Assembly (NCBI GenBank): GCA_002726235.1
Contig: PBSN01000008.1
Coordinates: 448,635 to 512,634, forward strand
Source of the DNA: Nitrospiraceae bacterium
Lineage (GTDB): Bacteria > Nitrospirota > Nitrospiria > Nitrospirales > UBA2166
DNA length: 64,000 nucleotides
Reading direction: 5' to 3'
Shown here: in pieces, positions 6,709 through 11,670 of the stretch
Numbering within the stretch: the stretch's first letter is position 1
How the letters are laid out: each line of letters opens with the position of its first letter
The notes under the pieces: generated by a model
The model's input: the letters and a program-made list of their open reading frames with translations, nothing else
Told to the model about the DNA's origin: nothing
The model's database searches: none
Translations under genes and position numbers: made by a program

Positions 6709-7335
6709 CTATCGGTTCTGAGACTGCACCCGACGCTGCCACAGATACAGCAACCAATAGATGTGTGAGCCGATCGCTGCAAACCAAATAAACCATTCAG
6801 GTTTCGAAACCAGTGCGAGGAACAGAATCAAGACGGAAAAATCTCGATTCGTCAGCTGCACAAGAAAATTGTTCAGTAGCGATTCAGTGGCTCCATTGGC
6901 TGGAGAATCTCGAAGTATCACAAACAAATCGATCAACATTCCAGTAGCCGCCACCATCCCCAACAGCACGTAAATCAAGCCCTCCTCACGATACGCGGCC
7001 CACGTAATTCCAGCGATGATAGCAATGTGAACCATGTTATCCGCAAGCAGATCAAAACGGTCCCCAAAGGGCGACTCAAGATGTTTGATCCTCGCAACCT
7101 CACCATCACAGCAATCGACAATTAATGAGAGTTGAAAGAGCAAGGCGCCAATGATGCCTCCGGCATACCCGCCATAGGCAAATGCGGCTGCGGCACCTAA
7201 GCCGATAAACATGGCAAGAAGGGTAATGGAGTTAGGAGTAAGGGAAGTCTTCAGAAAAAGCAGGGTAAGAGGACGGGAACACTTGCGGTTTAAATGCCTA
7301 TCGACAAACCCATCTGTACGAACCACAGATGCCAC
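6709..7335 (-). CDS. CDP-alcohol phosphatidyltransferase family protein
   Basis: Membrane enzyme that transfers a phospho-alcohol group from a CDP-linked donor to an acceptor alcohol. The diagnostic CDP-OH motif is complete: Asp74, Asp77-Gly78, Ala81-Arg82, Gly91, Asp95 and Asp99, giving the four metal-binding aspartates. Several hydrophobic segments surround it. The reading frame begins at GTG 7335, two codons after an in-frame TAA, so the N-terminus is short and the start is not strongly supported. It is the last gene on the minus strand of the phosphonate-type cluster. With the LicC/PntC-like nucleotidyltransferase upstream it would plausibly attach CMP-activated aminoethylphosphonate to a lipid. 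A 465-bp gap separates it from the next upstream gene, so it may have its own promoter. Confidence 0.82.
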   Translation of the reverse strand: MASVVRTDGFVDRHLNRKCSRPLTLLFLKTSLTPNSITLLAMFIGLGAAAAFAYGGYAGGIIGALLFQLSLIVDCCDGEVARIKHLESPFGDRFDLLADNMVHIAIIAGITWAAYREEGLIYVLLGMVAATGMLIDLFVILRDSPANGATESLLNNFLVQLTNRDFSVLILFLALVSKPEWFIWFAAIGSHIYWLLYLWQRRVQSQNR

Positions 7336-7800
7336 GGATTATATTACAACTGAGTGAATAATTATTCATCCTCACAACGCATCGGCAATACGTCGAGATT
7401 GTGATGACGTGCGTTGCTATCACCAGCCCAAATATTAAGCGCCAACCCGTAAACTTGGTAGAGAGGATTATGCCAGCCAATATGCCATTCACTGAGTGTC
7501 CAAACGCGATATGGACACTCAGAGTTACTCATAACATTGCCATATCACACTAAAGGTCGCGTTTTTTTCTCTGCCCCCTTTCTTCTGCCTTCACGATATC
7601 ATCAACGCTCACCAATAAGAGTGCCTTTTATCCCAAGGCGTTTTACAACTCTCTCACCAGGCATAACCCTTGATGCTTTGATTGGTCACCAAGCAAATAG
7701 CAGGAACACAGAAGCACAGGGAATGGAGAGAGATGTGATCGAGAAAGAACACCAAGTCTGCTGGTATGGCGAGCAAAGATAGGCCTTTAGGTTGGGAAGC
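7336..7800. other. Intergenic stretch inside the phosphonate-type cluster
   Basis: No convincing gene was found in these 465 bases. Minus-strand reading frames are short and broken by stops. One hydrophobic 64-codon frame at 7298-7492 overlaps the transferase start and has no recognisable family. The only clear structure is the perfect 10-bp inverted repeat at 7492-7522. The stretch may hold a promoter for the CDP-alcohol transferase or the remains of a lost gene. Confidence 0.5.
7492..7522. repeat. Perfect 10-bp inverted repeat (hairpin)
   Basis: CTGAGTGTCC at 7492-7501 is matched exactly by GGACACTCAG at 7513-7522, leaving an 11-base loop. There is no T-run on either side, so it is not a classical intrinsic terminator. 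It lies between the QW-repeat gene and the CDP-alcohol transferase, about 160 bases before the latter's start, and could be an operator, processing site or attenuator. Confidence 0.6.
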
Positions 7801-8778
7801 TTAGTCAAGATATCCCCAACATCTCATGATCTTGATAGAATCCTCTTCACTGTACACGAGAAATTTAAGCATCGTATCAAGTCCGTTACAGGCACGCTCA
7901 AGATTCGTATCCATTCCGGGGAAATCAGGCCACCCTTGCTCGTTCTTGGTCATCATAATCCAATCCATGCCGGCTTGAATCGCGGGATCGCATTGGCGCT
8001 CAATTCCAAGCATGCGAGAAACCAACATCAGCGATCGCACGGAGTCCATAGTATGCTCGACACTGTCATTGTCCCATGACCCGCTTTCTGCCTGCAATGA
8101 CAATAAAAGTTCTGCCCCTTTACGACATGGGCGACTTACTCGCATGACGTTTTCGATCATCACATCGGCGACCAATGAATCTTGTATGAGATGTGCAGTA
8201 AGTGCAACACCCGTCGGATAGAACTCTTGGTCATACCATCCCCCATCCGTTGATTGATTATCGAGAATAAACTGCATCCCTTTCTTCCATGATTCTGTCA
8301 CCTTTTTCCGCATCGTCGTTCCAAATTCCTTCCCTAACACAAGTACCACATTTAAAAAACTTACAGGGTAGCTCGTGGCGTCCAAATCTGACCAGGAAGG
8401 ATCAACCCATCTCCCATCAGGCTTCTGGGCATCAAGAAAATATCGTATCGCGAGTTGAACGGATCCGGAAAGACGTTCATACTTTAGAAGCTGATTTCCA
8501 CGAATAAGCATAAGGCCACAGAAGGCAGATACCCAAACCTTGCTTTCAGTGTCGGTACCAGTTTGCCCCCATCCACCATCCTCATTTTGCTGCGCTCCAA
8601 GCGCAATAAACTCTGGAGTCGATGTCTCGACGACCTTCTTGTGAATCAAAACACGCAACGCATGTGCCACTAACTTCAAATCGTGCTGATCACTTGTGGT
8701 TAGACTCCAATTGTCATATTCTGACCGCAAGTACGCATATTCGCTTTCAATAACTGACTCTATCTCTTCCGGCGTCAT
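7801..8778 (-). CDS. QW-repeat protein with terpene cyclase/prenyltransferase alpha-alpha fold
   Basis: A 325-residue protein with about five repeats of the QW/PFTB type: QNEDGGWGQ (residues 64-72), QKPDGRWVD (118-126), NQSTDGGWYD (174-183), LQAESGSWDN (228-237) and KNEQGWPDF (278-286). Such repeats build the alpha-alpha barrel of squalene-hopene cyclases and protein prenyltransferase beta subunits. This protein is only about half the length of a hopene cyclase and has no signal peptide. No complete DxDD acid motif is visible; residues 131-135 read DLDAT. The start at ATG 8778 has a strong GGAGG-rich ribosome-binding site. It begins 18 bp after the nucleotidyltransferase gene, so it belongs to the phosphonate-type operon, where such a protein is unexpected. 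Its role is unknown: it could act on a terpenoid lipid or merely be a binding scaffold. Confidence 0.75.
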   Translation of the reverse strand: MTPEEIESVIESEYAYLRSEYDNWSLTTSDQHDLKLVAHALRVLIHKKVVETSTPEFIALGAQQNEDGGWGQTGTDTESKVWVSAFCGLMLIRGNQLLKYERLSGSVQLAIRYFLDAQKPDGRWVDPSWSDLDATSYPVSFLNVVLVLGKEFGTTMRKKVTESWKKGMQFILDNQSTDGGWYDQEFYPTGVALTAHLIQDSLVADVMIENVMRVSRPCRKGAELLLSLQAESGSWDNDSVEHTMDSVRSLMLVSRMLGIERQCDPAIQAGMDWIMMTKNEQGWPDFPGMDTNLERACNGLDTMLKFLVYSEEDSIKIMRCWGYLD

Positions 8779-8796
8779 GTATGTACTCCCCTCCTC

Positions 8797-9552
8797 CTAC
8801 AATACCGACATATTGTTGATCGCGTCGAGACGCATAATGCCCGGCAATACATCGTCCTCCGCTCGATCCCGATCAGGCACACAATCAATCTCTATCCATG
8901 GCAAACCACCAATTTCCTCATATCCAACGTCAGCATGCTTGAAAAACATCTCGAGCGCGTCCTCATACTCAAGATCAAGATTCCCACTCGCGATATACGG
9001 ACATAGAGCATCATCAATATACTCCGTATTTGAAGCGGCAACTTTAAGAAACCCAACACCTTCTCCATGGGGAATTGCTCCTACGGGCGGAGTTTTTGTC
9101 AAGCTAACAACTAGGCCATCACGCACCATAACCATCATCTCTTCATCGTGTTGCTTCACGTATTGATCCACAAGAAGCGCATTTGGATGCGCTGATTCTA
9201 ACAAACGACTCAGGAACACTTTGGGAAACAAAATATCGGCATCCATGACCAGAACATCATCATCAAACTCTGTTCGAGCCATCCACAGCGAATAAATGCT
9301 TCCACGGCAAAACTCCTCGTTGATAATCCATCGGATCGACATCGAGGAGTCGACAGCCGTGGTCTCTTTCATAATTTGCTCTTTGCGATAGCCCACTACG
9401 ATCGAGACATTGGAAATCCCTACACTTTGAAGACTATCCAAATACCATGCAATGAGCGAACGACCAGCAAACGGCATAAGACATTTCGGTATGGAGTCAG
9501 TCACGGGAGCCATCCGTCGTCCAAGGCCAGCTGCGAGAATAATCGCTCTCAT
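8797..9552 (-). CDS. Sugar-phosphate/alkylphosphonate nucleotidyltransferase (LicC/PntC-like)
   Basis: NTP-transferase fold enzyme, 251 residues, opening with the nucleotide-binding motif LAAGLGRRM and the SIPKCL lysine region. VMDADILF supplies the metal-binding aspartates and WIEIDCVPD resembles the C-terminal motif of phosphocholine cytidylyltransferases (LicC). In that family the close relative PntC makes CMP-2-aminoethylphosphonate, which fits the adjacent transaminase. Its start overlaps the transaminase stop by 4 bp (ATGA), so translation is coupled. I infer that it activates aminoethylphosphonate or a related amino-alcohol phosphate for transfer by the CDP-alcohol transferase. Substrate specificity cannot be read from sequence alone, and a plain phosphocholine or sugar substrate remains possible. 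Confidence 0.8.
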   Translation of the reverse strand: MRAIILAAGLGRRMAPVTDSIPKCLMPFAGRSLIAWYLDSLQSVGISNVSIVVGYRKEQIMKETTAVDSSMSIRWIINEEFCRGSIYSLWMARTEFDDDVLVMDADILFPKVFLSRLLESAHPNALLVDQYVKQHDEEMMVMVRDGLVVSLTKTPPVGAIPHGEGVGFLKVAASNTEYIDDALCPYIASGNLDLEYEDALEMFFKHADVGYEEIGGLPWIEIDCVPDRDRAEDDVLPGIMRLDAINNMSVL

Positions 9553-10628
9553 CTTCCCACAACAGCCTGCTCACACACCTGCTCCAATGCGCTAATAAAG
9601 CCATCGAAGTCAGCTTGTGTCAACGCCCCCATATTTGCAACACGGAAAATGTTGGAATATAACGCTCCCTGTCCCGCATAAATTACAAACCCACGGACTT
9701 TGAGTTGATCATGAAGTTCAACATAGGTGAGAAAAGGTGGAACTCGAACTGCCGTGATAGTGTTTGAGGCATAATCTTCGGAAACAATGCATTGCAGATC
9801 GAGATCACGAAAACTCCGCCGAAGAAAACGTGATGCCCTATGATATCGATCGATTCGACGATCAACCCCTTCGTCCAAGAGTTCCGCTAAGGCTTCGTGA
9901 AAAGCATAATGGAGTTGAACCGATGGGGTAAACGGAACCCCAGGATCGTGACAATAGGAAGGAAGGTGAAGGGACACCGACCGCTTTGGATAAGTCCGCA
10001 TGGTATCTATAAGGGAATCTCTCACCAATAGGAAAGAGACCCCAGGAAAACCTTGAATACACTTTCCCGCCGTCCCGGCAAGGATATCAATATGACTTGC
10101 GGCAAGGTCAATATTCTCTCCACCAATTGAGCTCACCCCATCAACGAGAAAAATTTTTCCATAGCGGTGAGCCAGCTCGCCAATCTCTTTTACCGGATTC
10201 CGCAATCCAGTCGTAGTTTCGTGGTGCACCACCGCAACAACCTGAATCAATGGGTCAGCATTGAGTGATGACTCTATTTGAGCAAGCGGCGGCGGTTGAG
10301 TCCAATCAAGATTTAATTCTATCTTTCCAAGTCGATACGCTTGAGCAATTTCAGCAATTCGATCGCCATAGACTCCGTTCTTGATCACAAGAAGCTTCTT
10401 TCCCGGTTGGACAATAGATGTGATCGCGGCTTCAACTGCCGCGGTCCCAGAGCACGAAATGACAATCGCACGATAGTCTTGAGATCGTGCAAACGCCTGA
10501 ATGAGCTTCAATTTAATGTCGTATAAAAGAGAATAAAACTCTTCTTCACGATGACAAATATCGTCACGTAGCAACGCTTGCCGCACACGTTCAGACACAT
10601 TGACAGGTCCAGGATTAAGAAGAATCAC
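9549..10628 (-). CDS. 2-aminoethylphosphonate-pyruvate transaminase-like aminotransferase
   Basis: PLP-dependent class V (fold type I) aminotransferase of 359 residues. The N-terminal LLNPGPVNVSERVR and HREEEF motifs are those of the PhnW/AEP transaminase group. Asp163 in LVDGVSS would bind the PLP ring nitrogen, and Lys189 in GTAGKCIQG is the likely Schiff-base lysine. PhnW interconverts phosphonoacetaldehyde and 2-aminoethylphosphonate. Next to a decarboxylase that makes an aldehyde of this kind, the biosynthetic direction is more likely than catabolism. No phnX phosphonatase is present. The gene overlaps both neighbours by 4 bp. A taurine-forming role on sulfoacetaldehyde is the main alternative. 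Confidence 0.83.
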   Translation of the reverse strand: MILLNPGPVNVSERVRQALLRDDICHREEEFYSLLYDIKLKLIQAFARSQDYRAIVISCSGTAAVEAAITSIVQPGKKLLVIKNGVYGDRIAEIAQAYRLGKIELNLDWTQPPPLAQIESSLNADPLIQVVAVVHHETTTGLRNPVKEIGELAHRYGKIFLVDGVSSIGGENIDLAASHIDILAGTAGKCIQGFPGVSFLLVRDSLIDTMRTYPKRSVSLHLPSYCHDPGVPFTPSVQLHYAFHEALAELLDEGVDRRIDRYHRASRFLRRSFRDLDLQCIVSEDYASNTITAVRVPPFLTYVELHDQLKVRGFVIYAGQGALYSNIFRVANMGALTQADFDGFISALEQVCEQAVVGR

Positions 10629-11191
10629 TCTGGCATTCCGTTAGCAGCCTTCATAAAACGTTTGGTCATAACATCGGGCGCTACATCAACACGCAAAACA
10701 TCATCGACCTGCCTCGAGACCTTCACCAATAAAAACCCTGGTCCGTGAGCACTCAACATTCGCTCAAGAGTGTGAGGAAGAAGATGTTCTTCCACTACTC
10801 GATTTACAACAGCATATCCACACGACCGCGCAACAGCGTCAAGCGACACACTATGTGAAAGAGTCGCTTGATCTCCGGTACTTCCATAGACCTCGTTGTC
10901 AAACACAACGTGCAGAAGATTCTTTGGTTGATGCGCTGCAATGGTGGCGAGCGTCCCCATATTCATAAGGACATTGCCGTCACCATCCATAACCACAACG
11001 GTTCGGGTAGGTTTCGCAAGAGCAATACCAACACCGATGGCAGAAGCAAGGCCCATCGACCCGATCATATAAAAACGCTCGGACCGATCGTGAAAAGAAA
11101 ACGCCTCCCGCGAAGGAAATCCGTTACAAACAATTACTAGCTCGTCCGTGAGCTTACTTAGAACGACATGAATCGCTTCCGCACGTGTCAT
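10625..11191 (-). CDS. Phosphonopyruvate/sulfopyruvate decarboxylase, beta (ThDP-binding) subunit
   Basis: A 188-residue thiamine-diphosphate-binding half-enzyme. The ThDP motif runs from Gly70-Asp-Gly72 (MDGDGN) to Asn99 (DNEVYGSTG), with normal spacing. The FYMIGSMGLAS segment is typical of phosphonopyruvate and sulfopyruvate decarboxylases. It pairs with the alpha subunit encoded just upstream, overlapping by 4 bp (ATGA). Phosphonopyruvate decarboxylase is usually one chain and sulfopyruvate decarboxylase (ComDE) two, so the split layout is ambiguous. The aminoethylphosphonate-type transaminase, nucleotidyltransferase and CDP-alcohol transferase downstream favour phosphonopyruvate to phosphonoacetaldehyde. 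Confidence 0.82.
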   Translation of the reverse strand: MTRAEAIHVVLSKLTDELVIVCNGFPSREAFSFHDRSERFYMIGSMGLASAIGVGIALAKPTRTVVVMDGDGNVLMNMGTLATIAAHQPKNLLHVVFDNEVYGSTGDQATLSHSVSLDAVARSCGYAVVNRVVEEHLLPHTLERMLSAHGPGFLLVKVSRQVDDVLRVDVAPDVMTKRFMKAANGMPE

Positions 11192-11670
11192 TCCACCACG
11201 CCTTGCGTCAACATCAACGCCACAGGAGTTCGCCGAGAGTTCATGTGGTCACGCGCCCACTCAATATCAATCTGAAGTGAATCAATTGCAATCAGCCTGG
11301 AGGGAATAGACACGGTTTCAAGAATGCGTGTACAAACCTCACCCATGACAAGATGCTCGGGAGCATCGATTCCTTGATATCCACGCCAAGAGATCAGCAG
11401 GAGACACGGCATGGAATAAATTAAATTGAGAGACGTCAACACGTTGAGACAATTTCCCAAGCCCGAGTTCTGCATTAACACGACAGGTTGCTTGCCGCCA
11501 AGAAACGCACCTGCGGCCATTCCAACAGCTTCATCTTCTCGAACCGATGAAACATATCGTCCTTGAGCAGTCAACACAGCAATGAGACCGGCGAGTGCAG
11601 TGTCTGGCACACCGGTATAGAAATTGAATCCAGAATCGACAAGCATTTGGACAACATCAGTTGAAGTCAT
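11188..11670 (-). CDS. Phosphonopyruvate/sulfopyruvate decarboxylase, alpha (PYR-domain) subunit
   Basis: A 160-residue PYR-domain half of a ThDP decarboxylase. SGFNFYTGVPDTALAGL near the N-terminus, the REDEAVGMAAGA motif holding the glutamate that activates ThDP, and MQNSGLGNCLN are all typical of the ComD/Ppd group. It is the first gene of the minus-strand cluster and overlaps the beta-subunit gene by 4 bp, so the two should form a hetero-oligomer. The divergent sugar dehydrogenase starts 150 bp away, and the shared intergenic region presumably carries the promoter. PEP phosphomutase, which would supply phosphonopyruvate, is not next to it. Confidence 0.82.
   Translation of the reverse strand: MTSTDVVQMLVDSGFNFYTGVPDTALAGLIAVLTAQGRYVSSVREDEAVGMAAGAFLGGKQPVVLMQNSGLGNCLNVLTSLNLIYSMPCLLLISWRGYQGIDAPEHLVMGEVCTRILETVSIPSRLIAIDSLQIDIEWARDHMNSRRTPVALMLTQGVVE

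Follow-up and report, generated by a model that had tools for sequence, protein, structure and literature searches.

What is made by a compact set of genes in the Nitrospirales that joins a two-subunit decarboxylase, a transaminase and a cytidylyltransferase to a terpene-cyclase-fold protein? The set lies in the window, a 64,000-nucleotide stretch of Nitrospiraceae bacterium DNA that is part of contig C8 (PBSN01000008.1) in a genome assembly of 1.87 Mb, 27 contigs and ~91% completeness (G000). Six intact open reading frames (ORFs) occupy the minus strand at 6709–11670, with the same coordinates as in an earlier, sequence-only reading of this DNA. We conclude that the cluster probably encodes the later steps of a pathway that tailors the cell surface with aminoethylphosphonate (AEP), most likely through phosphonolipid synthesis. 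The conclusion builds on observed gene content, motifs, conservation, linkage and selection. A route from phosphonoacetaldehyde through AEP and cytidine monophosphate (CMP)-AEP to a lipid headgroup had been proposed in the sequence-only reading. That route is supported by the best homologues of the enzymes (RhiEF, PhnW, LicC/PntC and AF2299-type), by their catalytic motifs, and by linkage of the cluster to a fusion of the phosphoenolpyruvate (PEP) mutase (PepM) family in at least 25 related genomes. The features are as follows.

11188–11670, minus strand: PpdA, decarboxylase alpha subunit (ComD/RhiE type), 160 aa, TPP_enzyme_N
10625–11191, minus strand: PpdB, decarboxylase beta subunit (ComE/RhiF type), 188 aa, TPP_enzyme_C
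9549–10628, minus strand: AEP transaminase (AEPT), class V, PhnW/AepZ-like, 359 aa, Aminotran_5/PhnW-AepZ
8797–9552, minus strand: LicC/PntC-type cytidylyltransferase (NTase), 251 aa, NTP_transf_3 (PF12804, MobA-like)
7801–8778, minus strand: QW-repeat single-domain terpene-cyclase-fold protein (QW protein), 325 aa, SQHop_cyclase_C
7368–7526, minus strand: Rieske [2Fe-2S] ferredoxin pseudogene remnant inside the 465-bp gap, found by tblastn with the intact G001 gene
6709–7335, minus strand: CDP-alcohol phosphotransferase (head-group transferase), 208 aa, CDP-OH_P_transf (PF01066)

From PpdA onward, the genes are spaced by three 4-bp overlaps, an 18-bp gap and a 465-bp gap, matching the tight packing of five genes followed by a more distant transferase that had been described before. 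The last gap (7336–7800) has the length reported then but is not empty: it holds the decayed Rieske gene, which rules out a purely regulatory spacer. Gene order is shared with G001 (UWMA-0026; protein identity 78–89%) and with a second family (~48–61%). The sister genomes of the window genome are G003 (UBA2166) and G001, labelled Nitrospiraceae and Nitrospirales, respectively. Comparison with G001 gave ratios of nonsynonymous to synonymous substitution (dN/dS) of 0.06 for PpdA, 0.10 for PpdB, 0.15 for AEPT, 0.13 for NTase, 0.065 for the QW protein and 0.13 for the CDP-alcohol transferase. Hence, all six genes are maintained under purifying selection, and the conserved order together with these ratios shows that the cluster is not a chance assembly. 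The Rieske remnant, and the nearly complete loss of the cluster in the sister G003, could be taken as signs that the cluster is decaying and non-functional in the window genome as well. With six intact ORFs, dN/dS of 0.06–0.15, every inspected catalytic motif kept and PepM intact, we regard this as extremely unlikely.

The sequence-only reading had found no PEP mutase next to the cluster. This holds within the window, but not genome-wide. The genome search it had proposed returned three PF13714 matches, among them a PepM–NTase fusion of 538 aa on another contig of the same genome (C2:156096–157709; L004:9094–10710). This protein has the signature EDKVFPKTNS (EDKxxxxxN) and scores 378 bits against TIGR02320 (cut-off 319.55); a second match carries KRCGH, a methylisocitrate-lyase signature. 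The phosphonate reading thus came through this search, and the apparent lack of a first enzyme proves mistaken. Placement of the window-genome PepM in a tree is unsure owing to a long branch, which bears on the question of horizontal transfer. Single-chain Ppd was not found in the window-genome assembly, which leaves PpdAB as the sole candidate consumer of phosphonopyruvate.

Across the order, fusions of a PepM-family domain to an NTase occur in 207 of 236 Nitrospirales genomes, and PpdB, marking the split decarboxylase, in 213 (one copy in every genome listed). For high-quality genomes the counts are 141/154 and 151/154, respectively. Each genome with a fusion has one, except G019, where a single gene is split in two, and G335, where a truncated fusion occurs together with a stand-alone relative. 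Two PepM types were distinguished: canonical, with EDK...N, and divergent, with EDN(V/I)(F/Y)PKRCS (37 of the 38 sequences checked). Of the genomes listed, 87 carry the canonical type and 63 the divergent type; no genome carries both. The divergent fusion lies 1.8–6.3 kb from PpdB in 25 of the 36 listed genomes with both genes placed, versus 0 of 63 for the canonical type; the corresponding Fisher value, 3e-15, overstates independence, as the genomes are related. Where the divergent fusion is linked, the order is PepM / PpdA-PpdB-AEPT-NTase-(NT)CDPAP-HpnL, and the core PpdA-PpdB-AEPT-NTase-(pseudo-NTase)CDPAP-HpnL recurs at most of the f3 and f4 family loci that were inspected. Of the genomic evidence, the proximity of the divergent fusion to PpdB argues best for placing the decarboxylase cluster in a PEP-mutase pathway. 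Losses can also be coupled. PepM and the cluster were lost together in G003 (96% complete), which has no PepM-family fusion. At its syntenic site only the QW gene is intact; what else is left there is part of an NTase gene, with a stop codon, and a small fragment of PpdA. The decayed phosphonate genes at this site (L064) are flanked by a TRAP T-component gene on one side and a glucose/sorbosone-dehydrogenase-like gene on the other. In G026, PepM has been lost along with NTase and the CDP-alcohol transferase, whereas PpdAB-AEPT has stayed.

Family relationships suggest substrates, a lipid acceptor and a role for the QW protein. The PepM–NTase fusion on contig C2 would convert PEP to phosphonopyruvate, which a RhiEF-like PpdA–PpdB heterodimer dependent on thiamine pyrophosphate (TPP) would turn into phosphonoacetaldehyde. 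The PhnW-type transaminase would then form AEP, and the PntC/LicC-type NTase CMP-AEP. Finally, the CDP-alcohol transferase would move the AEP group from CMP-AEP to a lipid alcohol, probably diacylglycerol; this acceptor is the weakest step of the route. The QW protein would be an accessory single-domain protein of the squalene-cyclase fold that perhaps carries a lipid, isoprenoid or otherwise, or acts on one.

For each enzyme, the closest solved relatives come from phosphonate or phosphocholine pathways. PpdA matches PF02776 (1e-8) and has its catalytic Glu in the segment VREDEAVG. PpdB keeps the GDG...N TPP motif, and its closest solved relative by a wide margin is the beta subunit of the RhiEF phosphonopyruvate decarboxylase (9iz3, E 6e-28; next E 9e-6). 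RhiEF, of the rhizocticin pathway, is a proven heterodimeric phosphonopyruvate decarboxylase and is homologous to ComDE (PMC12141560). PpdAB and RhiEF are both two-subunit TPP enzymes; the window genes stand in a cell-surface setting, RhiEF in an antibiotic one, and the substrate of PpdAB is a prediction. For AEPT, the best solved relatives are PhnW (1m32, E 5e-62) and the Treponema PntC-AEPT (6pd1, E 3e-54). The two solved structures closest to NTase are LicC (1jyk, E 9e-19) and Treponema PntC (6pd1, E 9e-12), and NTase keeps the catalytic motifs GLGRRM, PK and DAD. By alignment, two of its residues face the amine: Asp104, shared with LicC, and Glu197, corresponding to PntC Glu196; the roles of these pocket residues in LicC and PntC are from PMC6697681. 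The CDP-alcohol transferase has the complete DxxDGxxARx8Gx3Dx3D motif, DCCDGEVARIKHLESPFGDRFDLLAD, and is most similar among solved structures to AF2299 (4o6m, E 4e-21), with IPCT-DIPPS (4mnd) also matched. In most relatives, the transferase is the C-terminal part of a 448–514-aa protein with an N-terminal region that is nucleotidyltransferase-like but lacks the usual signature. This domain of ~250 residues, carried by most homologues in the order, has been lost in the window genus and also in G001, suggesting that it is dispensable.

Several observations weigh against the phosphonolipid reading. At the decarboxylase, PpdB scores slightly higher with the sulfopyruvate model TIGR03846 (197 bits) than with the phosphonopyruvate model TIGR03297 (185 bits). 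PpdA gives 127 bits with TIGR03297 versus 121 with TIGR03845, both below cut-off, AEPT reaches 334 bits with TIGR03301 (cut-off 360.8), and indeed all three proteins fall below the NCBIfam equivalog cut-offs. Moreover, PpdA-PpdB-AEPT is kept with no detectable fusion in G026, G403 and G404 (L107, L170 and L171). Neither NTase nor the transferase was seen at these three loci, those of G403 and G404 being on 12-kb contigs. Genera g12 and g149 have PpdAB-AEPT and no detectable PepM, and there these genes can serve another function or be relics. Of all the observations, the three genomes argue most strongly for a second substrate. One such substrate would be sulfopyruvate, with PpdAB as a ComDE-type decarboxylase and the transaminase making taurine from sulfoacetaldehyde. 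The split subunits, as in ComDE, the PpdB scores and the genera lacking PepM all fit this sulfonate route. Yet RhiEF is a split form that acts on phosphonopyruvate, the transaminase is PhnW-like, PEP-mutase-family genes are adjacent in relatives, and the LicC/PntC enzyme would have no role on taurine. Nor was ComA (PF02679), one source of sulfopyruvate, found in any of 21 genomes examined, the window genome included. We therefore consider the sulfonate route very unlikely.

At the other end of the pathway, the sequence does not reveal a lipid acceptor, a search of the window genome yielded no HpnL-type protein, and the canonical PepM of that genome is unlinked to the cluster, sitting near the end of contig C2 among surface-glycan-type genes (SIS, DAO, aldolase/SDR, ABC-exporter and nucleotide-sugar genes). 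These neighbours of PepM, and the proteins that the transferase matches best in NCBIfam and the PDB (IPCT-DIPPS and AF2299), are what one might expect of a phosphonoglycan pathway. In such a pathway, a transferase like the inositol-phosphate (DIPP) synthases would pass the AEP group of CMP-AEP to a glycan or soluble polyol. However, the transferase is a membrane protein, and acceptors in its family are mostly lipids. No glycosyltransferase is present within the cluster, and HpnL-type membrane proteins follow the transferase in most relatives: the HpnL gene is adjacent to the cluster in f2, f3 and f4 relatives, and elsewhere in the genome in G001. We consider a glycan or polyol product fairly unlikely, and a phosphonolipid remains the favored product.

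Phosphonolipid pathways of this kind are already known, since a cluster of pepM, ppd, AEPT, NTPT, CDP-APT and hpnL has been proposed to make phosphonolipids in Nostoc (from lichen) and Burkholderia (PMC5987646). The enzyme set and proposed reaction order are the same, and an HpnL-type gene is present in most Nitrospirales copies. The window copy differs in its split decarboxylase, in having PepM on another contig and no HpnL found, in the inserted QW gene and Rieske remnant, and in the lack of a 2-oxoglutarate oxidase in the cluster. The PntC pathway of Treponema denticola and its relatives (PMC6697681) similarly combines a PF12804 cytidylyltransferase with AEPT; in the window, by contrast, NTase is free-standing and combines an Asp of LicC type with a Glu of PntC type in the amine pocket, and a CDP-alcohol transferase is the head-group enzyme. 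What is new here is the near-universality of the pathway in Nitrospirales, the split decarboxylase in a phosphonolipid setting, the two PepM types and the QW/Rieske insertion. In a literature search that covered mainly open-access papers, we found no report of phosphonolipids in Nitrospira or Nitrospirales (one paper was loosely related), nor any description of these four features. The Nitrospirales include nitrite oxidizers and comammox Nitrospira. If the phosphonolipid assignment is true, reduced organophosphorus would have a source in these abundant nitrifiers, and the two PEP-mutase types, together with the QW/Rieske insertion, would offer concrete leads on how such pathways diversify.

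The QW protein had been flagged in the sequence-only reading as an unexpected terpene-cyclase-fold protein that might point to an unusual acceptor lipid. Its relationship to terpene cyclases stands, and it is indeed unexpected here; the acceptor idea is more conjectural, since the QW gene also occurs apart from the phosphonate genes and its partner Rieske gene is dead in the window. It matches SQHop_cyclase_C at 33 bits, above cut-off, and squalene-hopene cyclase in a profile search (E 2e-12). Alignment to Nitrospira cyclases by hhalign gave a probability of 96.6%, with D-L-D-A-T-S placed on D-V-D-D-S-A. The AF2 model is a single alpha/alpha barrel (pLDDT 85, pTM 0.87), with QW-type repeats QQNEDGGW, QKPDGRW, QSTDGGW and QAESGSW. 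Foldseek neighbors (TM ~0.5–0.65) include drimenyl diphosphate synthase, squalene-hopene-cyclase-like proteins, MstE, farnesyltransferase beta and complement C3d/C4; among these, the sequence profiles favor the cyclase branch. What does not carry over is an intact DxDD protonation motif. All seven full-length proteins retain the Asp at the third, catalytic position but have Ala in place of the last Asp (DLDA in the window). Thus the protein resembles squalene-hopene cyclase and MstE in its barrel, repeats and catalytic-position Asp, and MstE in length; it differs in having DxDA for DxDD and in its low identity in structural matches (12–18%).

The family was found only in f1 and f2, in the window genome, G001, G003, G010, G013, G016 (two copies) and G022, with an edge fragment of 26 residues in G019. 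Wherever enough of the cluster is present to judge, the gene lies between NTase and the CDP-alcohol transferase. Outside the order, a single-sequence contig scan, which finds close relatives only, returned just the two sister genomes and 17 weak QW-repeat proteins; no Ppd, AEPT or PepM homologue lay near any of the 17. Directly after the QW gene in G001, G010, G013, G016 and G022 is a gene for a Rieske ferredoxin of ~108 aa (PF00355, E 4e-20 / 1e-18; the G001 copy is L063:8546–8872). Where intact (G001 and family f2), it is always between QW and the CDP-alcohol transferase. The remnant in the window aligns to the G001 protein over 53 aa (36%, E 6e-10), keeps one Cys, has lost the other ligands and has an in-frame stop codon; DNA similarity extends to about 7590. 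We read the QW gene as a lineage-specific insertion into an otherwise standard pathway, probably co-transcribed with a Rieske ferredoxin gene in its ancestral state.

Could the QW protein be a genuine class II terpene cyclase of one domain, or an enzyme modifying prenyl lipids, that works with the Rieske protein, so that the headgroup is placed on a cyclized or modified isoprenoid lipid? The profile relation to squalene-hopene cyclase, the conserved Asp, the fold neighbors drimenyl diphosphate synthase and single-domain MstE, strong purifying selection, and the joint travel of QW and Rieske beside the head-group transferase in f2 and G001 all point this way. Set against these are the altered DxDD, the single domain, the equal standing of non-catalytic complement thioester domains among the fold neighbors, and the dead Rieske gene in the window. 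Most Nitrospirales genomes also run the core pathway without a detectable QW protein. In G003, the gene is intact without phosphonate genes (dN/dS ~0.11 versus the window copy), and a second G016 paralogue (C108; L068:2093–3259), 46% identical to the window protein, lies away from the cluster. This persistence suggests that the role of QW is not strictly tied to phosphonates. On balance, a cyclase role is unlikely. More speculative is the notion that QW, as a DxDA-type class II cyclase, and Rieske form an isoprenoid-tailoring module leading to an AEP-headed terpenoid lipid, and that the divergent EDN...KRCS fusions are a second, Cys-bearing type of C–P mutase; we hold this to be decidedly unlikely, and we know of no such lipid class. 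QW as the hopanoid cyclase of the genome is ruled out by a full-length squalene-hopene cyclase at C8:75198–76148.

The PepM types themselves show further variation. The divergent EDN...KRCS fusion (L116:10840–12519, L070:2615–4288 and about 60 further genomes) has Cys at the position of the PepM Asn, as in methylisocitrate lyases, and is a candidate for either a mutase or a C–C lyase. It replaces canonical PepM in part of the Nitrospirales, and the usual EDKxxxxxN filter would miss it. The G025 fusion (L182:5034–6725) is 44% identical to the divergent type yet has the canonical EDKLFPKVNS, and is possibly an intermediate between the two. Canonical PepM–NTase adjoins a single-chain Ppd in L114 and about eight genomes (G023, G012, G041, G037, G055, G052, G039 and G008), which thus each have two different phosphonopyruvate-decarboxylase-type enzymes.

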